A stretch of DNA of 64,000 nt. Source: Melghiribacillus thermohalophilus. Lineage in GTDB: Bacteria > Bacillota > Bacilli > Bacillales > Alkalibacillaceae. The translations under genes and the position numbers were made by a program. This document shows positions 28,452 through 51,873 of this stretch, piece by piece (position 1 is the stretch's first letter; each line of letters opens with the position of its first letter). The notes under the pieces were generated by a model, which worked only from the letters and a program-made list of their open reading frames with translations, was not told where the DNA came from and made no database searches. The stretch lies in assembly GCF_004342905.1 (NCBI RefSeq), contig NZ_SMAN01000004.1, forward strand, positions 123,518 through 187,517, read 5' to 3'.

Positions 28452-29219
28452 ATGAATGCCAGTGCAATGAAGGAAATATTGGAACACGGGCTGTTCCATC
28501 ATGTATTCCAGCCCCTCTATGAACTGAAAAATGACCAGGTTATTGGATATGAATCCCTATTAAGGGTAAACAATTTCGATCGTACGGAAGATGTGTTCCG
28601 TACGGCCAGAGAACATGGGTGTCTTTTTGATCTGGATACGTCATCTGTAACCAATGCTGTGATGCATTTTTCAAAATATAATCTGTTCAAACGACAGTGT
28701 TTATTTGTTAACCTCTTCCCTTCTACACTCCAGCATCCATCATTTTTATCCTTTTCTGAAAAACTCTTGAACACATTTCCGTTTGACCCATCTGATATGG
28801 TCATTGAAATAAACGAAAATGAGGTCATTCAAAATCCAGAATCACTTAAGGAAATGATTTCCTTTTTAAAACATAACGGTTTCCAGATCGCTATTGATGA
28901 TGTCGGAAAGGGTTCAGCTTCCTTTCAAAATATTATCGAGATAGAACCGGATGTCATCAAACTCGATAAATATTTTTCCAAAAACCTTCAGCACTCCCTG
29001 ATGAAACAGGAGGCTGTGAAAGTATTTGTCCATTTTTCCAGTGAGGCGATGAAGGTTGTCCTTGAAGGGATTGAGACAAAAGAAGATCTGGAAATGGCAA
29101 AAGAACTCGGGGTCGATATAGGCCAGGGATTTTATCTTGATAAACCGGCACCGCTAGGCCAATTTGCCACTCAGGATGATCAGCATGCCCATACAGCAAC
29201 GACGATACATAAAGATTAA
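28452..29219 (+). CDS. EAL-domain protein (c-di-GMP phosphodiesterase or sensor)
   Basis: 255 residues, a stand-alone EAL domain with no GGDEF or sensor part. EAL signature appears as YESLLRV (ESL instead of EAL), the metal asparagine as EINENEV, AIDDVGKGSASFQ for loop 6, DVIKLDKYF for the catalytic lysine, LEGIET and GQGFYLDKP. Loop 6 departs from the usual DDFGTG, so activity may be low or absent and a receptor role is possible. AGGAATTC before ATG. Riboswitch control upstream ties it to c-di-GMP. Confidence 0.85.
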   Translation: MNASAMKEILEHGLFHHVFQPLYELKNDQVIGYESLLRVNNFDRTEDVFRTAREHGCLFDLDTSSVTNAVMHFSKYNLFKRQCLFVNLFPSTLQHPSFLSFSEKLLNTFPFDPSDMVIEINENEVIQNPESLKEMISFLKHNGFQIAIDDVGKGSASFQNIIEIEPDVIKLDKYFSKNLQHSLMKQEAVKVFVHFSSEAMKVVLEGIETKEDLEMAKELGVDIGQGFYLDKPAPLGQFATQDDQHAHTATTIHKD

Positions 29220-29262: not shown

Positions 29263-30126
29263 CTATGAATAAGGTTTTTCGTCAATGTAGCGGCCGAAGT
29301 CAGGAATGGCCAGTTTGTCAAACTCCTGAGCCAGTTTGTCCAGTCCAGCAGAGAGCTTGTCACCTGATACAGGAAGTCCATGTCCGGTGAGTGCTATGTC
29401 CGGATTTAATGATGCTAATTTTTTAACAGAATTCCAGGCCTGTTCCCAGTCGATTGTGAAATATCTTGGAGGACCATTGATTTCTTGTTTCTGGGTAAGG
29501 ACTTTGTAAAGGGAATCCTGTTTCACGGTTACAAAAGCATCTCCGGCGACAAGGACCCGATCCCTTTCTCGAAACAAAGAAATATGTCCGGGTGTATGTC
29601 CTGGTGTGTGTATCCAGCGCCATTCCGCCAATTCTGGAACGGACCCATCGGATGGAATGGCTCGGGCATAATTTCCGATATTCACCGGTTCATTTGGGAA
29701 CATTGGTGAAATCTTTGCAATCAGCCCCCCTTCAACAGAAGGGTCCGGTTCAGGATAACTGAGTTCCCCTGTAACAAACGGCAACTCATCAGGATGTACA
29801 TAAACCGGCACTTCCCACTCTTTTAATAACTCAATCAGCGCTCCTACATGGTCAAAATGTCCGTGGGTTAAAATAATTCCTTCAGGCTTGCTTTTTGGGC
29901 CCAATATTCTTTCACAGGTTTCAAGAATATCATCGGCCGAACCTGGCATTCCCGCATCAATCAGCATCCATTTTGATTGTTCACGGTTTGTGATCAAGCC
30001 AATATTTACGATTTGAATCGTCTGAAAGAGCACCCCTTCGGCAATTTCCTGCATCATTCCGCTTGCTACTGAAGTTGCGGGTATGAATTTGTAATCCTGA
30101 CCATATCCAATATCTTTGTCCACCAT
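29263..30126 (-). CDS. Metallo-beta-lactamase-fold hydrolase
   Basis: 287 residues with the zinc motif THGHFDHVGAL, then TPGHTPGHISLF and GDAFV, and a late GHGLPVSG. The class is the glyoxalase-II-like part of the superfamily; the substrate is unknown. In-frame upstream Met codons exist (30234), but an AGGAAGG site favours the ATG at 30126. It is divergent from an AimR-like gene, with about 185 bases between. Confidence 0.8.
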   Translation of the reverse strand: MVDKDIGYGQDYKFIPATSVASGMMQEIAEGVLFQTIQIVNIGLITNREQSKWMLIDAGMPGSADDILETCERILGPKSKPEGIILTHGHFDHVGALIELLKEWEVPVYVHPDELPFVTGELSYPEPDPSVEGGLIAKISPMFPNEPVNIGNYARAIPSDGSVPELAEWRWIHTPGHTPGHISLFRERDRVLVAGDAFVTVKQDSLYKVLTQKQEINGPPRYFTIDWEQAWNSVKKLASLNPDIALTGHGLPVSGDKLSAGLDKLAQEFDKLAIPDFGRYIDEKPYS

Positions 30127-30311
30127 GATCACCTTCCTAATTGTTTTCCTACTATTATCATGCATCCGAATCGACATTTTCATGTAAGAAGTCCCCGTTT
30201 GCCAGTCATATTTGGCATTCTGTTTTGAAATCATGCAAATCTTTGTAGTAAAATATAAAATAATCCTGAAAAATGGTGAAGCATCTCACCTGTGCAGAGG
30301 GGTTTGAAAAG

Positions 30312-31346
30312 ATGACGGGAAACCAGATAGAACATAACGATCTGTCAGCTATTGGGTTAAGTGAACACTTGCCGTTATTTTTGAATATGCAAATTGCAAA
30401 AAATAATCGAAGTTTATATGATACCATCCAGATTATCAAACAATTCGTTATATCTTCCAGTTCCCCGCGTATTCAAAGGGAGGGAATGGAGTTTCTCTAC
30501 TGGAATGGCTTTTATGAAGAATTAAGAACCCTGGTTGATCAACATTCTAGACTCCTTGATGAAACCTCAGCAGAATGGGCGAACATGTATAAATGGATGT
30601 ATTTACGGAAAAAACGGAAAATCAATGCCCGGGAATTAATTGACTGTATGAACGACCTGGGACCATCTGACCCGGCTCTTCAAGCATTAAAGCTATTCAT
30701 GCTGATATACAGTTATTACGATTTAAGGGAATACGGAAAATTAGGTGTTTATCTGGATACCCTGGAAGCATGGATTGATCAGGTAGAATCCCCTTTGCTT
30801 CGTGATTATCTCACCATGCGGCAATATGAGGTTTTATTTCATTATCACTGGAAAAAAAACGAAGTCATCATGGCAAGAATGTATGCGTATAAAGTGGTTA
30901 ACAATAGTTACAATCAAGAGAGAAAAGCTATGCTGCATTCCCATCTGGCCCAAACCTTTATTTTTGAAAGTTATGATAAAGCAATGGGACATATTCAGGA
31001 ATCGCTGTTATTATCCAGCGTATACGGTTATAAAATTATTTACGATCAGGTAGCGAATCATACGATTCCTTTTATATCTGCACACTTCGGCAAATATGAA
31101 GAAATTGAAACTACTGATCTGTCGGAACAGGCTCATTTAGAAATTGCCAGAGGAAACAGGAAAAGGGCTATAGAACTGCTAGAAAATCTTGATCACTTCA
31201 CCCCATTTCGAACTTATTATTATGGACTGGCAAAAAAGGATACAGGGATATTACAGAAGGCCTATGATGGTTTTGTAAATGAATATAAGGATTACTTTTT
31301 TGCTCGGCTGCCTCTAAAGGCTATAGAGCAATTACCATACCTATAA
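30312..31346 (+). CDS. AimR-like (arbitrium receptor family) protein
   Basis: 344 residues, all helical. The C-terminus shows the pattern of SPbeta AimR: DLSEQAHLEIARGNRKRAIE then YYYGLAKKDTGILQKAYDGF and FFARLPLKAIEQL, matching DLQEQAH.. and ..FLIRLPLLEL of AimR. This is the RRNPP fold of TPR repeats sensing short peptides. No DNA-binding helix-turn-helix could be read with confidence at the N-terminus. GAGGGG precedes the ATG at 30312 (ATG at 30273 also open). No phage gene and no recognisable aimP are adjacent, so it may be a chromosomal paralogue. Terminator follows. Confidence 0.7.
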   Translation: MTGNQIEHNDLSAIGLSEHLPLFLNMQIAKNNRSLYDTIQIIKQFVISSSSPRIQREGMEFLYWNGFYEELRTLVDQHSRLLDETSAEWANMYKWMYLRKKRKINARELIDCMNDLGPSDPALQALKLFMLIYSYYDLREYGKLGVYLDTLEAWIDQVESPLLRDYLTMRQYEVLFHYHWKKNEVIMARMYAYKVVNNSYNQERKAMLHSHLAQTFIFESYDKAMGHIQESLLLSSVYGYKIIYDQVANHTIPFISAHFGKYEEIETTDLSEQAHLEIARGNRKRAIELLENLDHFTPFRTYYYGLAKKDTGILQKAYDGFVNEYKDYFFARLPLKAIEQLPYL

Positions 31347-31359
31347 TACTTAGCAGGTG

Positions 31360-31390
31360 ATGACGTGTTTATCATGACACGTCATTTTTT
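31360..31390 (+). terminator. Terminator after the AimR-like gene
   Basis: ATGACGTG / CACGTCAT stem with a TTTATCATGA loop, then TTTTTT. Confidence 0.85.
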
Positions 31391-31592
31391 GTCCAGAATG
31401 TCTTCCGGGCGGGGGATGGAAGCTGTCATTGAAGGATTTTTAAAATGGGAATAGACTTTCTAACCATATATGGGTAGAATTGTAAAGGGTTATGCGCGTA
31501 TGGAGATGGGGGTTCGTCTGCCTGAACATTGGTAGCTGGAATGAACGCATGGATTCATGATGGAATGGTTAAGGCATCAGGGTGAAAGTGGG

Positions 31593-32780
31593 GTGAACAG
31601 TTGGAGTATGAATAAAACTTCTGAGTTTTTATCCAGACTTGATTACATTGTTTTGTCATTATTGGGAATACTGGCCACCATCAGTTTTGTTTCGTTATTT
31701 CATGTTCAGGACCTTGAATTAACGACTGATCATTATATAAAAAAACAATTAATCTGGTATGCGCTTTCAGGTGGTTTATTGTTGCTGGTAACCATGATCG
31801 ATCTATCTGTTTTTAAGCAGCTTGCTGTGTATATTTATATTTTCAGTCTTCTGTTCCTTGCCGGGATACTGGTAGCTCCTGAAGATATTGCTCCTATCAT
31901 TAATGGGGCAAAGGGATGGTACAGGATTGGTCCATTCTCCATTCAGCCGGCAGAGTTTATGAAAATCGGATTGATTCTGGTTTTAAGTAGAACTGCTGCC
32001 AGGACAGAAACTGATTCCCGTCCACTGAGTGAAATCAAGTTTCTTTTAAAAATGGGGATTTACCTAGTACCGTTAATTTTCCTTATGCAACGGTTTCCAG
32101 ATTTAGGAAACCTGTTGGTGTATCTCGTTATTTTTTTGTCTGTTTTGCTGGTTGCCAATCTGAGAATGTCTACCCTTTTAATCATGATTTCAATACCTGT
32201 ATTCTCGTTAATTGCCCTGTTTTTTTTGTATATGTATTATCCAGATTTTTTCTTTAATCAAGTACTGGGGGTTTTGCCGGATTATCAGGCAAATCGTTTT
32301 TACGGATGGTTAAAACCGTTTGAATATCCAGAAGAAGGGTATCAGCTCAGGCAATCCCTTTTAAGTATAGGGGCAGGGCATCTGTATGGTTTATCATCCC
32401 TGGAATATTTCCCCAATGTACCCTATGCCTATTCGGATTTTATCTTTGCAGTTATCGCTGGTATTTACGGGTTTTTGGGGGCCAGTTTAGTGATAATCGT
32501 ATATTTTTTATTAATATATCGTATTACCCTGATTGCTGTTCACTATCAAGATCCTTTTGGAAGTTATGTCGGTGCAGGGGTGATTGGAATGCTGGCATTT
32601 CAGGTGTTTCAAAATGTTGGGATGTCTGTCGGAATCGTGCCCATCACCGGTATAGTGTTGCCTTTTATCAGTTATGGGGGAAGTTCATTGATTGCAAGCA
32701 TGATTGCCGTCGGACTTGTGATCAATATGAAAATGAGAACGAAGAAATATATGTTTGAAACAAATCTGTCAGCAAAGTAA
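31593..32780 (+). CDS. SEDS-family protein (FtsW/RodA/SpoVE)
   Basis: About 395 residues with roughly 10 membrane helices; the family polymerises lipid II with a partner class B penicillin-binding protein. NGAKGWYRIGPFSIQPAEFMKIGLIL and the end IVPITGIVLPFISYGGSSLIASM (shown in parts: PFISYGGSSL) are its signatures. It looks nearest RodA, but a PBP partner is not nearby. The start is uncertain: GTG at 31593 (GGGTG upstream) or ATG at 31608 or 31557. It may be a second RodA copy. Confidence 0.8.
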   Translation: MNSWSMNKTSEFLSRLDYIVLSLLGILATISFVSLFHVQDLELTTDHYIKKQLIWYALSGGLLLLVTMIDLSVFKQLAVYIYIFSLLFLAGILVAPEDIAPIINGAKGWYRIGPFSIQPAEFMKIGLILVLSRTAARTETDSRPLSEIKFLLKMGIYLVPLIFLMQRFPDLGNLLVYLVIFLSVLLVANLRMSTLLIMISIPVFSLIALFFLYMYYPDFFFNQVLGVLPDYQANRFYGWLKPFEYPEEGYQLRQSLLSIGAGHLYGLSSLEYFPNVPYAYSDFIFAVIAGIYGFLGASLVIIVYFLLIYRITLIAVHYQDPFGSYVGAGVIGMLAFQVFQNVGMSVGIVPITGIVLPFISYGGSSLIASMIAVGLVINMKMRTKKYMFETNLSAK

Positions 32781-46145: not shown

Positions 46146-47183
46146 ATGGCAAATCAAGATAAAAAAAACCGACAGGTGACAGGTACCAGTTTGCTTGAGG
46201 TTCGCAATTTAAAGACGCATTTTTTCACGAAAGCTGGAGTCGTGAAAGCAGTTGATGGTGTGACCTTTGACATTAAACCAGGAGAAACATTGGGGATTGT
46301 GGGAGAATCGGGGTCTGGCAAAAGCATGACGGCGATGTCTATCATGCGCCTGATCCCTTCCCCACCGGGAAAAATTGTTGGTGGTGAAATCGAATTCGAA
46401 GGCAAAAACTTACTCAGTATGTCAGAAAAAGAACTAAAAAAAATCCGCGGGAATGAAATTTCGATGATCTTTCAGGACCCGATGACATCGTTGAATCCAG
46501 TATTTACGATCAAAAAACAAATGGTAGAAACGATTCTCACTCATCAGGATATGACAAAGAAAGAAGCAATCGATCGTGCCGTAGAGCTTCTCGATCTGGT
46601 TGGCATACCGGATGCGCGGGCACGGCTGAACAATTATCCCCATGAATTCAGCGGCGGAATGCGCCAGCGGGTCATGATCGCCATGGCATTATCCTGCGAT
46701 CCCAAATTGCTTATTGCTGACGAGCCTACCACCGCATTAGATGTGACCATTCAGGCGCAAATCCTGGATTTATTAAATCGCCTTCAGGAAGAGATGGGCA
46801 TGTCCATTATGATGATCACCCATGATCTCGGAGTTGTCGCAGAAGTCTGCGACAGGGTGATGGTGATGTATGCCGGACAGCCCGTTGAATTTACGGAAGC
46901 AGCGACACTATTTGATCACCCAAAACATCCTTATACCTGGGGGCTGTTAAATTCCATTCCAAAGATCACAAAGAAAAAAGAAGGACAAAAGCGACTGGAA
47001 GCCATTCCCGGTCTTCCCCCTGATTTGAGAAATCTTGAGGCAGGATGTCATTTTGCCCCGCGCTGCAAGCATGCGATGGATTCATGCTACAGCAAAAATC
47101 CATCCTACGAACCTTGTGAACCGGATCATTTCGTCAGATGTTTGTTGTACGAGGAAAAAGAAGAGGTGTTATCCAATGACTAA
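46146..47183 (+). CDS. appD: Oligopeptide ABC transporter ATPase (AppD type)
   Basis: 345 residues. Walker [16 protein letters not shown], signature [16 protein letters not shown], Walker [15 protein letters not shown], and the oligopeptide-transporter C-terminal [11 protein letters not shown] zinc-like cysteine block. GGGGGATC precedes ATG at 46146. The first 14 codons coincide with a REP-like repeat (46170-46187): normal family members start near [11 protein letters not shown]. The gene order D-F-A-B-C is that of B. subtilis app. Energises peptide uptake. Confidence 0.9.
46170..46187 (+). repeat. REP-like element inside the appD N-terminus
   Basis: CGACAGGTGACAGGTACC encodes RQVTGT, residues 9-14 of AppD. 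It differs from the copy at 46112 at a few positions only. Confidence 0.6.
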
Positions 47184-48171
47184 TTTACTTGAAGTAAAAG
47201 ACTTAAAAAAACACTTTCCGATTAAAAAAGGTGCGATTATACCAAAGCAGGTCGGGGCAGTTAAAGCGGTAGATGGAGTCTCTTTTGCTGTTAAAAAAGG
47301 GGAAACACTCGGTCTTGTTGGGGAAAGCGGCTGCGGCAAATCAACAACCGGGCGAACGATTTTGAGATTACTGGAACCTACCGAAGGAAACATTTTTTTT
47401 AACGGAGAAGAAATAACCCGGTATAAAGGAGAAAAACTCCGCAAGCTCCGGAAGCAGATGCAAATGATTTTTCAGGATCCATATGCTTCCCTTAATCCTC
47501 GCATGACTGTTGAACAGATTATCAGTGAACCGCTGCGAAGTTTTAATGTTCCATCAAAACAGCGGCGACAAAAAGTAGATGAATTGCTTGAAGTAGTAGG
47601 GTTGAGTTCTTACCATAAACGCCGTTATCCACATGAATTTAGCGGGGGACAGCGGCAGCGTATTGGAATTGCAAGAGCACTCGCCCTGGAGCCGGAACTG
47701 GTCATTTGTGATGAGCCTGTATCGGCCCTTGATGTGTCCATTCAGGCTCAAGTTGTCAACCTTATGGAAGATTTGCAGAAAGAGTACAATCTTACATATA
47801 TATTTATCGCCCATGATTTAAGTGTTGTTCATCACATCAGTGATCGGGTAGCTGTCATGTATCTGGGTGAAATTGTTGAAATCGGTGAGGCAGATGAACT
47901 GTATCACAACCCTAAACATCCATATACTCAGGCACTTCTTTCAGCCGTGCCCGAAGCTGACCCTCATCTCGAAAAAGAGCGAATTATCCTTGAAGGGGAT
48001 CTGCCAAGCCCATCCTCTCCTCCTTCAGGGTGTAAATTTCATACCCGGTGTCCTCTGGCAGAGGATATATGCCGGGAAAAAAGGCCACAGCTAAACCAGC
48101 TGACCAACTCTGATGAACATCAGGTGGCCTGTCATCTTGTGAAGGAGGTGGTAGAAACAGGAGTAAATTAA
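47176..48171 (+). CDS. appF: Oligopeptide ABC transporter ATPase (AppF type)
   Basis: 331 residues, second ATPase of the transporter: Walker [18 protein letters not shown], signature [19 protein letters not shown], Walker [16 protein letters not shown]-terminal [15 protein letters not shown]. Its ATG at 47176 overlaps the appD stop (ATGACTAA), which indicates coupled translation. The open frame goes on upstream through appD but that is not coding. Confidence 0.93.
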
Positions 48172-48217
48172 CTGTTGCACGATAAATATCACCAAAACTT
48201 TTACAGGGGGTTGACTC

Positions 48218-49876
48218 ATGAAGAAACAATATTTATGGTCGCTGTTTAGTGCCATGCTTTTAGTCTTAATCATTATAGCAGGATGTGGAGGTTCCGATGA
48301 TGCATCCACTGATGATTCAGGGGATGACACGGACACATCTCAGGCAGACAATTCCGACAACTCTGAGGGTTCCGATGACAGTGGTGAAAAGAAAACCCTT
48401 GTTTTTGGTAGGGGTGCTGATGCTGTTTCCCTGGATCCGTCAAAGGTAACAGACGGTGAATCCATTTACGTAACGAATCAAGTGTATGACACACTTGTAC
48501 GTTATGCCGAAGACAGCACGGATGTTGTTGAAGCATTAGCCGTTGACTGGGATGTAAGCGAGGATGGGACTGTATGGACATTCCAGCTGCGTGAGGGTGT
48601 TAAATTCCATGATGGCACAGACTTCACTGCTGAAGATGTAGTGTACAACTTCGAACGATGGGCTACATCCGACGAATTTATTTACTATGGATACATGTTT
48701 GGAGCCAGTGAAGATGATCCCGCTGGAATTATTGAAAAAGTAGAGGCTACCGGTGAATATGAAGTTCAGTTCACACTTGAAGCACCAAATGCACCTTTCC
48801 TTCAGACGCTGGCTATGCCACCATTTGGTATCGCCAGTCCTGAAGCCATCGAAGAATATGGTGAAGATTATGGAAAAAATCCAGTAGGAACCGGTCCGTT
48901 CAAATTTGTTGAATGGGCAAGAGACGATCGCATTGTCCTGGAAAAGAATCCAGACTACTTTGGTCAGGTCGCATCGATCGATGAAGTCATCTTCCGGGTC
49001 ATTCCAGATAACAGTGCCCGTTTCATGGAACTGCAGTCCGGGACCATCGATATTATGAATGGAATGAACCCGCAGGATTTGACCACAGCCGAAAACGATT
49101 CAGAATTGCAGGTCATCCGCCGTCCTTCCATGAACGTTAGCTACATGGCGATGAATACATCCAAAGAAGGACCAATGTCTGATAAACGGGTTCGTCAGGC
49201 GATCAATCTGGCCATTGACAAAGATAAATTACTAACCCTTTATGAAGGAATAGGAAAACCTGCGAAAAATCCAATGCCACCTTCACTCTGGGGCTATAAT
49301 GACGATATTGAAGATTACGGCTACGATCCGGAAGAAGCAAAACGTTTACTTGCTGAAGCTGGATATGGCGATGGATTCACTGTAGAACTTTACACCATGT
49401 CTAATCCGCGTCCATATATGCCGCAGCCTAAACTGATGGCAGAAGCCATCAAACAAATGCTTGCGGAAGTTGGCGTTGAGGTCAAAATTGTCATGAATGA
49501 CTGGGATACCCATTTAGCCAAGACTGAAAATGGCGAACATGATATGGCGTTTCTGGGATGGACTGGAGACAATGGTGACCCGGACAACTTCCTGTACGTA
49601 CTTCTGGACAAAGATAATGCAAAAGTAGGTTCTGCAGGCAACATTGCATTCTATAAAAATGATGAATTGCATGACCTGCTAGTGAACGCGCAGACGGAAA
49701 TGGAACAGGAAAAGCGTACAGAGTACTATCTGAGAGCCCAGGAAATCATCCATGAGGACGCACCATGGGTTCCAATTGCTCATACAACACCACCGCTTGG
49801 AGTAGCCAAACACGTGAAAAATTACGTGCCGCACCCGACTGGAAGTGAACCGTTTAATAATATTGAGCTGGAATAA
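48218..49876 (+). CDS. appA: Oligopeptide-binding lipoprotein (AppA type)
   Basis: 552 residues, family 5 extracellular solute-binding lipoprotein. Signal ends at LIIIAGC (residues about 19-25), followed by a long Asp/Ser-rich linker, then DAVSLDPSKVTDGESIYVTNQVYD and the conserved PPFGIASPEAIEEYG and GTGPFKFVEW stretches. It captures peptides for import; a very acidic linker is common in salt-adapted cells. AGGGGGT precedes ATG. Confidence 0.92.
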   Translation: MKKQYLWSLFSAMLLVLIIIAGCGGSDDASTDDSGDDTDTSQADNSDNSEGSDDSGEKKTLVFGRGADAVSLDPSKVTDGESIYVTNQVYDTLVRYAEDSTDVVEALAVDWDVSEDGTVWTFQLREGVKFHDGTDFTAEDVVYNFERWATSDEFIYYGYMFGASEDDPAGIIEKVEATGEYEVQFTLEAPNAPFLQTLAMPPFGIASPEAIEEYGEDYGKNPVGTGPFKFVEWARDDRIVLEKNPDYFGQVASIDEVIFRVIPDNSARFMELQSGTIDIMNGMNPQDLTTAENDSELQVIRRPSMNVSYMAMNTSKEGPMSDKRVRQAINLAIDKDKLLTLYEGIGKPAKNPMPPSLWGYNDDIEDYGYDPEEAKRLLAEAGYGDGFTVELYTMSNPRPYMPQPKLMAEAIKQMLAEVGVEVKIVMNDWDTHLAKTENGEHDMAFLGWTGDNGDPDNFLYVLLDKDNAKVGSAGNIAFYKNDELHDLLVNAQTEMEQEKRTEYYLRAQEIIHEDAPWVPIAHTTPPLGVAKHVKNYVPHPTGSEPFNNIELE

Positions 49877-49883
49877 TGAATAT

Positions 49884-49924
49884 TTAAGAAGTTTCCCTTC
49901 GCTTGCAGAAGGGAAACTTCTTAA
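49884..49924 (+). terminator. Strong hairpin between appA and appB
   Basis: Perfect 17-bp stem TTAAGAAGTTTCCCTTC with loop GCTTGCA. It may stop part of the transcripts or protect the upstream mRNA, giving more AppA. Confidence 0.8.
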
Positions 49925-49951
49925 TTCCCCTACTATCAGGAGGAATGACTC

Positions 49952-50956
49952 ATGTTAAACTACATCATACGAAGACTTGTGTTTTTAATTCCGGTATTAC
50001 TGGGAGTAACGTTGATAGCTTTTTCTTTGATGCACCTCATACCAGGGGACCCGGCAAGAAGCATGCTGGGAGAAAAAGCAACGGAAGAACAGCTGGAAGC
50101 CCTAAGAGAGGAACTGGGACTAAACGATCCTCTTGCGGTTCAGTATGGAAGATATCTTGGACAAGTTGTAACAGGTGATCTGGGGAAATCAGTGAAATCA
50201 GATATTTCGGTAGCTGAAGAACTGGCCAACCGCCTGCCGGCTACCTTTGAACTGACCTTATTTGCTATGGGAGTTGCAATTTTCGTAGGAGTTCTCGCCG
50301 GTGTGATTGCAGCTGTCAAACAATACTCCTGGTTTGATAACATCAGTATGACCGGAGCTTTATTCGGTGTATCCATGCCGATCTTCTGGCTTGGCCTCAT
50401 GATGATCTGGTTATTTTCTGTCAAACTTGGCTGGCTTCCGCCGTCAGGAAGGCTGAGCCATGAAATTGAATTAACTACGATTACGAATTTGTATCTTCTT
50501 GACAGCATATTAACGTGGAACTGGGAAGCATTCTGGGATAGTTTTAAGCATCTGTTGATGCCGGGACTTGCTCTTGGCACCATTCCGATGGCCATTATCG
50601 CCCGTATGACTCGGTCCAGCATGCTTGAAGTGATGCGGCAGGATTACATACGAACCGCCAATGCCAAAGGATTGTCCAGATTCCCTGTCATTTTTCAGCA
50701 TGCGTTAAAAAATGCATTTTTGCCGGTGCTAACCGTAATTGGTTTGCAGTTCGGATATCTCCTGGGAGGAGCTGTTCTGACAGAAACCATTTTCTCCTGG
50801 CCAGGTGTCGGAAGATATGTGTATCTTTCGATTTTAGGAAGAGATTATCCTGTGGTTCAAAGTACGATTTTAGTCATTGCTGCCATTTTTGTCATTGTGA
50901 ACTTAATTACGGATATTTTATACAAATACTTTGACCCGAGGATCAGCTATGATTAA
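49952..50956 (+). CDS. appB: Oligopeptide ABC transporter permease (AppB type)
   Basis: 334 residues, about six membrane helices. N-terminal LNYIIRRLVFLIPVLLGVTLI and HLIPGDPARSMLGEKAT; the EAA loop is DYIRTANAKGLSRFPVIFQHALKNAFLPV (in part: YIRTANAKGLSRFP). AGGAGG before ATG. It forms the peptide channel with AppC. Confidence 0.94.
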   Translation: MLNYIIRRLVFLIPVLLGVTLIAFSLMHLIPGDPARSMLGEKATEEQLEALREELGLNDPLAVQYGRYLGQVVTGDLGKSVKSDISVAEELANRLPATFELTLFAMGVAIFVGVLAGVIAAVKQYSWFDNISMTGALFGVSMPIFWLGLMMIWLFSVKLGWLPPSGRLSHEIELTTITNLYLLDSILTWNWEAFWDSFKHLLMPGLALGTIPMAIIARMTRSSMLEVMRQDYIRTANAKGLSRFPVIFQHALKNAFLPVLTVIGLQFGYLLGGAVLTETIFSWPGVGRYVYLSILGRDYPVVQSTILVIAAIFVIVNLITDILYKYFDPRISYD

Positions 50957-50973
50957 GAAAGGGTGTGGTAATC

Positions 50974-51873
50974 GTGTCAGCTGAGATCAATCCAACAGGC
51001 CATCCGAAAGCAGGCACCACAAAAGTAAAAGCATCGAGTCTATGGCTTGATTCCCTGAGCCGCCTGTTAAGAAGCAAGACATCTGTCATTGGATTGTTTA
51101 TCATCCTAACGTTAGTTGTTACAGCTATATTTGCCCCTTATTTTGCTACCCATGACCCGATTGAACAGGATCTTTTAAACCGATACGCCGCACCTTCATC
51201 CGAACACTGGCTGGGAACGGACGGTTTAGGCCGGGATATTTACAGCCGGATTGTTTACGGTACGAGAATATCCATTCAGATTGGCGTTATTGCAGTAGGT
51301 ATCTCGATGGTTGTGGGAGTCCTGTTAGGGATTATCGCTGGCTACTTTGGACGCTGGATTGATAATGTCATCATGAGAATCATTGATATATTAATGGCTT
51401 TTCCAAGCATTCTGTTGGCCATCGCTCTTGTTGCGGTTCTAGGACCAAGTTTAACCAATGCAATGATTGCTGTTGGAATAGTCGGGGTTCCCCATTTTGC
51501 CAGAATTGTTCGGTCAACGGTGTTATCCATTAAAGAAACGGAGTATATTGAAGCAGCCCGGGCATCCGGGGTCAGAAACGGGGAGATTTTGTTCCGCCAT
51601 ATTCTGCCCAACAGCATGGCTCCAATTATTGTCCAGGCAACATTAAGCATTGGTACAGCAATCCTAGATGCAGCGGGATTAAGTTTCCTCGGTCTTGGTG
51701 CCCAGCCGCCAAAACCGGAATGGGGTGCCATGTTGAGTGATGCACAGGAAGCATTGCAGACAGCACCATGGGCGATCACATTCCCGGGACTGGCCATTTT
51801 AATCGTCGTTCTCGGTTTTAACTTATTTGGGGATGGTTTGAGGGATGCCCTTGATCCTCGTTTGAAGCAATGA
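50974..51873 (+). CDS. appC: Oligopeptide ABC transporter permease (AppC type)
   Basis: 299 residues, about six membrane helices and the EAA loop YIEAARASGVRNGEILFRHI. AAAGGGTG is 9 bases before a GTG at 50974; a GTG at 50965 is too close to it. Begins SAEINPTG, then LLRSKTSVIGLFIILTL. It is the last gene of the operon. Confidence 0.93.
   Translation: MSAEINPTGHPKAGTTKVKASSLWLDSLSRLLRSKTSVIGLFIILTLVVTAIFAPYFATHDPIEQDLLNRYAAPSSEHWLGTDGLGRDIYSRIVYGTRISIQIGVIAVGISMVVGVLLGIIAGYFGRWIDNVIMRIIDILMAFPSILLAIALVAVLGPSLTNAMIAVGIVGVPHFARIVRSTVLSIKETEYIEAARASGVRNGEILFRHILPNSMAPIIVQATLSIGTAILDAAGLSFLGLGAQPPKPEWGAMLSDAQEALQTAPWAITFPGLAILIVVLGFNLFGDGLRDALDPRLKQ

Follow-up and report, generated by a model that had tools for sequence, protein, structure and literature searches.

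The window analyzed here is a 64,000-nucleotide stretch of the Melghiribacillus thermohalophilus genome (contig NZ_SMAN01000004.1, positions 123,518 to 187,517), which encodes at 30312–31346 on the forward strand a 344-residue receptor related to AimR, the arbitrium receptor of SPbeta/phi3T phages. The original prediction of an AimR-like gene at this position is borne out by searches with profile hidden Markov models: the protein matches Pfam PF22871 (E 8.5e-76, 255.5 bits against a cut-off of 26.7, residues 39–339) and NCBIfam NF038310 (E 2e-55, 188.3 bits against a cut-off of 70), and so exceeds the curated cut-offs of both families; it also matches PHROG 1728 (E 4e-57). Solved AimR chains align with it at E 6e-7 to 2.7e-6, a weak but clear pairwise similarity. 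As judged from sequence, homology to AimR is beyond doubt and far above chance, and the C-terminal motifs on which the prediction had drawn (EQAH, YYYGL, and RLPL) are present. An AGAGGGG sequence resembling a ribosome-binding site (30296–30302, +) stands 9 bases 5' of the ATG at 30312; no AGAGGGG-like site is seen before an alternative, longer start at 30273. The promoter-like pair TTGAAA-18-TAAAAT (30225–30254, +) belongs to a class of sites found about as often as chance allows (nine against 6.0 expected). A terminator-like stem-loop of 11 pairs followed by a T run (31359–31386, +; three such sites against 1.1 expected) lies directly behind the gene, as had been predicted, and stands before any place for a co-transcribed propeptide.

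No propeptide gene was found beside the receptor, in agreement with the claim that an obvious aimP is missing nearby. The rule used here for propeptides combines a ribosome site, a basic start followed by an uncharged hydrophobic stretch (together a signal-like start), and [DN]P in the tail, with a start codon at −60 to +350 from the receptor stop. Nothing downstream of the window receptor passes this rule, no DP-type C-terminus in any of the six frames of the window belongs to a frame with a signal-like start, and an aimP gene directly downstream, a trait of arbitrium systems, is not found behind the receptor. The setting is that of a host chromosome. Upstream lie leuA, leuB, leuC, leuD, ilvD, a gene for an EAL protein, and the divergent gene for a metallo-beta-lactamase (MBL)-fold hydrolase that had been named as neighbor (29263–30234, −; PF00753), for which no link to the system is shown. 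Downstream lie a gene of the FtsW/RodA/SpoVE family (31557–32780, +; PF01098), a Na/Ala symporter gene, and a gerA-type germination operon; the remaining neighbors scanned are one HTH_17 protein and one open reading frame (ORF) without a match. The locus was described as solitary and free of phage genes, and none of the 14 neighboring ORFs is phage-like in a Pfam scan (PHROGs were not run on these ORFs). A survey of related genomes shows the same order (leu/ilv, EAL, MBL, receptor, FtsW, gerA-type operon) in G012, the only other genome of the genus in our set. Carriage by a phage or other mobile element, a further arbitrium trait, is thus not found for this gene, whose host neighborhood is common to both genomes. 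About 15 kb from the receptor, the window also holds an operon for an oligopeptide ATP-binding cassette importer (46146–51873) with two ATPases, a binding protein, and two permeases, all named by eye; the binding protein was checked and is SBP_bac_5.

The window protein belongs to a large clade of short AimR-like receptors. A search of 397 genomes of the order gives matches in 71 at E ≤ 1e-3, with an empty interval from 6e-38 to 4e-21 that parts the strong matches of 37 genomes (E ≤ 1e-37), whose open frames have 337–400 residues, from the weak ones of the other 34, whose open frames mostly have 372–447 residues and in some cases 324–362. At most five proteins were scored per genome; further copies turned up in retrieved loci. 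Among the weak-match genomes, loci were retrieved for 20 of 34. The short set comprises 72 receptors in 60 loci of 37 genomes (73 with the window protein), stemming from the four group codes f1, f6, f13, and f36; relatives named in the protein search are from Ornithinibacillus, Gracilibacillus, Pontibacillus, Virgibacillus, Lentibacillus, Aquibacillus, and Paraliobacillus. In a tree of 98 proteins (a quick tree, without bootstrap), a branch with an SH-like approximate likelihood ratio test (SH-aLRT) value of 100 separates the 73 short receptors from 25 canonical-type AimRs; the window receptor and its G012 orthologue join at SH-aLRT 99, and both join a paralogue from the window's own genome at 100. 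Phage AimR proteins found (six records) are 19–27% identical to the window protein. When viral contigs were scanned with two conserved peptide patterns, 43 stretches matched and no clade relative was confirmed among them. One plasmid, of Bacillaceae bacterium C02 (L038), carries an AimR-like gene broken by a stop; the propeptide behind it has DPGSGMG as its end.

The short receptors differ from canonical AimRs at both ends. The DNA-binding domain of SPbeta AimR is placed at residues 1–49, with alpha3 as the recognition helix, by PMC9232636. Before the column of SPbeta residue 50, the window protein has 23 residues and its 72 relatives a median of 25 (16–32 in 62 of them), against a median of 49.5 in 24 proteins of the canonical set, a set in which four proteins, L111, L112, L114, and L118, have short N-termini. 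The NF038310 match starts at model position 56 in the window protein and at 23–75 in five of five short relatives, compared with 1–9 in five of five canonical AimRs, and a profile–profile alignment of the short clade with canonical AimRs starts at SPbeta residue 41. A profile of the helix-turn-helix (HTH) segment scores above 7.1 bits for 14 of 17 canonical N-termini, each with its own row left out, and for none of the 73 short ones; the 17-row alignment used for both profiles leaves out L111, L112, L114, L118, L103, L108, and L039. At the other end, the C-terminal helix with L380–L386 mediates dimers of SPbeta AimR (PMC6340889). After the column of SPbeta residue 374, the window protein has 3 residues, also the median of the short clade, compared with 12 in the canonical set; L380 and L386 have no counterpart in the window protein, and a full dimerization helix is missing from 61 of 72 relatives. 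The alignments show the window protein to lack both the HTH stretch and the C-terminal capping helix. The four AimR-like proteins L111, L112, L114, and L118 (320–347 residues) fall outside the short clade, have 9–16 residues before the HTH-equivalent column, and keep 12 residues at the C-terminal helix; perhaps they represent a separate HTH loss or truncated frames.

Of the SPbeta residues that contact the peptide, two are kept in the window protein and five are not. E300, which anchors the peptide N-terminus in SPbeta AimR (PMC6340889, PMC9232636), is kept in the window protein as E272 (codon at 31125–31127, +), and D360, another peptide contact, is likewise kept. Among the 72 short relatives, the E300 counterpart is glutamate in 69 and D360 is kept in 55. 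N183, R189, and E272 of the window protein are invariant in 32 aligned proteins, including the paralogue paired with a propeptide and the two orphans, i.e., the window receptor and its G012 orthologue.

A candidate ligand is encoded elsewhere in the same genome (G000). The paralogue of the window receptor (contig C7, 95729–96676) is 51% identical to it over the matched part and 49% over 340 aligned residues, and is followed, 27 bases after its stop, by a small gene with a signal-like sequence (MKGLVKWLGILTVVLGLTFSPGHVQDYADSLTGEVSTQNDPGDAGIG) that ends in VSTQNDPGDAGIG, with the predicted peptide DPGDAGIG. The sister genome G012 holds an orthologue of the window receptor, approximately 70% identical and with the same neighbors (dN, the nonsynonymous divergence, is 0.20; dS lies beyond the range of the method, and selection is judged from dN alone). 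No second AimR-like receptor was found in this 99% complete draft, either by profile search or in the order-wide search with the window protein. G012 nevertheless keeps a very similar propeptide, ending in VSTQNDPGDTGIG (DPGDTGIG), on contig C14, a different contig from its receptor, and the surrounding 19 kb contain no receptor. The propeptides of the two genomes are probably the same gene, because both lie downstream of opp permease genes (named by eye) and yhbH; the receptor beside the propeptide would either have been lost in G012 or never have arrived there. Six of the family's 22 genomes match the pattern DPxxxGxG plus the stop-like codon class TRR, and in four of these six the codon reads TGG inside a frame of 282–288 residues that is transporter-permease-like by eye. 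True stop-ended matches occur only in G000 and G012, once each, and these are also the only two with an AimR match over the cut-off; the other 20 have none, G009 holding a sub-threshold AimR fragment with a stop. The reversed control pattern gives one match each in three of the 22 genomes. Because G000 and G012 are close kin, their shared signature counts as one observation, not two.

Two observations concern the surroundings of these propeptides. A prophage-like insertion of approximately 37.8 kb (G000 contig C7, ~54034–91817; L153/L154) splits yhbH in two. A large serine recombinase is encoded at the left end of the insertion, an 11-base repeat marks either border, and phage genes were seen by eye; yhbH is intact in G012. 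We take yhbH to be DUF444 and, from its name, sporulation-related. Elements that leave during sporulation are known for other genes, and the insertion is possibly such an element. Additionally, the EAL protein near the window receptor (28452–29219) is mirrored by an EAL protein with a PilZ protein near the detached propeptide of G012 (L122, 10330–11058), which may be coincidence.

Across the clade, a propeptide lies directly behind 27 of the 73 short receptors. When the other genes of these loci (150 codons or longer) were put through the same rule, 2 of 543 passed, and the strand opposite the receptors gave 0 of 73. DPG occurs in 14 of the 27 propeptides, several of which carry their motif two or three times (DPGDPGMG). 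The [DN]P filter is blind to other kinds of peptide and misses SPbeta AimP itself; dropping the motif requirement brings up one more ORF for the 46 receptors scored negative (L089, membrane-like). Genomes frequently combine orphan and paired receptors, and by our tally each of the eight f36 genomes has at least one receptor–propeptide pair and at least two orphan receptors. In the 37 genomes with short receptors, the stop-ended DPxxxGxG pattern gives 26 matches in 20 genomes (3 for the reversed pattern), of which 17 lie in frames with a signal-like sequence and 9 in short frames without one. In L050 and L058 (group f36, spoIIQ/spoIIID), the receptor is followed by an 81-residue propeptide in which a DPVEPP-like motif occurs four times; another small propeptide starts approximately 270–290 bases behind the receptor.

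The short receptors recur at a few chromosomal loci, which were assigned by neighbor clustering, with Pfam checks on representatives from one locus each. The largest group, between spoIID–spoIIQ and spoIIID–mbl with comK further along, comprises 21 loci, with a propeptide behind 5 of 21 receptors. Between PBP–speE–speB and argS (12 loci), one to four receptors stand in a row and none of the 22 has a propeptide; tandem arrays of three to four short receptors stand here in L043, L045, L048, and L053, and no ORF beside them passes the propeptide rule. Propeptides follow 8 of 8 receptors at the MscS channel/Na/H antiporter locus (8 loci), 9 of 10 at YdjM/BCCT (10 loci), 4 of 6 at the catalase locus (4 loci), and 0 of 3 at MerR/DinB (3 loci). 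The MBL/FtsW locus is that of the window receptor and its G012 orthologue (2 loci, 0 of 2), and the paralogue occupies a place of its own (1 locus, 1 of 1). Here spoIIQ (an M23 peptidase by Pfam), speB (Arginase), speE, ywiB, flhO/flhP, fabZ, MerR, and DinB are presumed identities, named by eye. Such recurrence at host loci is the behavior of a resident gene family.

On balance, the reading we favor, and consider somewhat probable, is that the window receptor is an orphan intracellular receptor of an HTH-less chromosomal clade, which likely reads a host peptide of DPGDAGIG type encoded at another locus; the output would be the switching of a partner protein, not of a promoter. The original prediction had offered a peptide-sensing host regulator as one of two readings, and this part probably stands; it did not extend to the missing HTH segment, to the candidate peptide gene at another locus, or to the paralogue that a propeptide accompanies on another contig. 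In the proposed mechanism, the DPGDAGIG-type peptide would be made as a propeptide, secreted, and trimmed, and would be re-imported by Opp (one Opp-type operon lies at 46–52 kb of the window and another close to the propeptide gene). The peptide would then bind in the tetratricopeptide repeat (TPR) groove of the window receptor and change its grip on a partner protein, the way in which peptides control Rap proteins, which have no HTH either. The receptor has no HTH, and its output would therefore be changed contact with a partner; sporulation regulators are a first guess for that partner, because one large branch of the clade sits between spoIIQ and spoIIID. In favor of a peptide made elsewhere is G012, which retains its propeptide although no receptor other than the window gene's orthologue was found there. 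A broader proposal, which we hold tentatively and consider possible without being probable, is that the AimR lineage, independently of Rap, shed its DNA-binding domain and gave rise to a resident peptide network of spore-forming Bacillaceae, in which HTH-less receptors at fixed loci (one by spoIIQ/spoIIID) read a few DPG-type peptides and orphans read the peptide of a paralogous locus.

Several points weigh against the favored reading. The window receptor and the paralogue may have different ligands, because they are only 49–51% identical, and a second receptor could be missing from the G012 assembly, because it is a 99% complete draft. No adjacent propeptide was found for 46 of the 73 short receptors, and by our tally 12 of the 37 genomes have none beside any receptor; among these 12, G012 has its detached propeptide and G187 one approximately 1.4 kb from a receptor. 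The terminal losses are not uniform: 10 of 72 relatives have at least 35 residues in front, three of them 47–64, as counted from the first start codon (a choice that produces the long N-termini of L057, L078, and L090), and 11 of 72 have at least 12 residues at the C-terminus. Scores with the HTH-only profile overlap, 5 of 73 short receptors falling at 3.2–7.1 bits and 3 of 17 canonical ones at 1.0–5.7. The SPbeta peptide contacts N202, N206, R228, N239, and Q299 are not kept in the window protein, although most of them vary among canonical AimRs too. The Rap-like mode is proposed from the lost HTH, and no match to the three-helix bundle of Rap was seen; an effect on a promoter via the partner protein is possible.

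Other explanations account for parts of these data. The host receptor could be an eavesdropper that binds the arbitrium peptides of infecting phages, serving to sense them or, as a sink, to shift the phage decision; eavesdropping has been proposed for chromosomal AimRs without propeptides (outside prophages, 11% have a propeptide; PMC9765709), and the DPG found in 14 of the clade's 27 adjacent propeptides is a theme reported for AimR-type peptides (PMC12700828). We consider this unlikely, given that many clade receptors have propeptides of their own, that the window genome and G012 each carry one, and that the two-pattern scan confirmed no clade relative in viral contigs. A phage source of the DPGDxGxG peptide was also rejected: the eight viral stretches with this motif before a stop include none with a signal-like start and none with an AimR-like gene nearby, in a search that covered this one peptide pattern. 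It is about as improbable that control of DNA has been retained by the window receptor, whether by means of a hidden N-terminal fold or together with an HTH protein as partner. Canonical AimR does act as a transcription factor, and a remnant of the third helix region may persist in some relatives (L048 matches NF038310 from position 23, and L071 reaches 7.1 bits with the HTH-only profile); nevertheless, the 23 N-terminal residues of the window protein compare with 49 in SPbeta AimR, conservation at this end is poor across the clade, and the C-terminal dimer helix is absent too.

A TPR adaptor that no longer senses peptide, with the fold alone kept, would fit the lack of adjacent propeptides at the window locus, at its orthologue, and behind all 22 receptors at speB/argS, as well as the loss of several SPbeta peptide contacts. 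We give this marginally less credence still: the three residues N183, R189, and E272 are invariant across orphan and propeptide-paired receptors alike, and G012 keeps a propeptide without a neighboring receptor. The second reading of the original prediction, a leftover of a lost prophage, draws on AimR being typical of mobile elements (87% of AimR hits; PMC9765709), and we regard it as highly improbable. The frame is intact, dN is low, the gene occupies the same place in two species, and none of its 14 neighbors is phage-like in the Pfam scan; the clade recurs at host loci in 37 genomes, the two-pattern scan confirmed no viral relative, and the phage proteins found are 19–27% identical to the window protein.

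We therefore return to the favored reading, an orphan host receptor, and compare it with known systems. AimR of the SPbeta/phi3T phages (NF038310, PF22871; PDB 5zvw, 6hp3, and others) is of the same family, aligned over the whole TPR part, with E300 and D360 in common, and its aimR–aimP gene order is likewise seen in the clade members with a propeptide directly behind; unlike it, the window receptor has neither HTH stretch nor capping helix, lies in a host chromosome, and has no adjacent propeptide. Because it lacks the HTH segment, the window receptor would not be an AimR in the arbitrium sense, and may work most like Rap. In public records, many clade genes bear the label "AimR family lysis-lysogeny pheromone receptor," a name that the missing DNA-binding segment and the host loci contradict for the short clade. 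Chromosomal AimRs without a propeptide are already known (PMC9765709, Table 1 of which lists Virgibacillus with AimR), and the window receptor resembles these "eavesdroppers" in being chromosomal, outside prophages, and without an adjacent propeptide; it differs in that its clade lacks the HTH and other members have their own peptides. Subfamily 21 of Alkalihalobacilli, which a sequence tree places inside AimR (PMC12700828), is likewise a chromosomal system, and the window clade may or may not be the same. PMC12700828 mentions Rap and subfamily 17 as having lost the HTH. The literature searched, portions of papers included, yielded no description of an AimR clade that lacks the HTH and has peptides of its own, and the novel clusters of PMC10075063 may include the clade.

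The closest functional parallel would be Rap–Phr, in which RapB, RapD, and RapJ are orphan receptors and RapB reads a peptide made beside a paralogue (PMC9765709). The short clade is similarly HTH-less, with several copies per genome and some orphan receptors. It differs in lineage, AimR rather than Rap: the Rap N-terminal three-helix bundle (RapH_N) is not seen in the window protein, for which a Pfam scan at E ≤ 1 gives AimR alone. Of the 397 genomes, 33 have a strong RapH_N match (E < 1e-12), and none of these is among the 37 short-receptor genomes (Fisher one-sided p 0.034, in a test that ignores kinship and with an E limit set after viewing the table); weaker matches, the best at 5.8e-11, occur in 25 of the 37 and may, at a guess, be NprR. 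Replacement of Rap by short receptors is weakly suggested by these counts. The clade offers defined peptides (DPGDAGIG, DPGDPGMG, and others) and receptors with and without an adjacent propeptide, with G012 as a natural case of peptide and receptor lying apart. If the favored reading is true, arbitrium-type signaling exists also as a host system with its own peptides, and Rap is not the sole well-populated RRNPPA lineage without an HTH.
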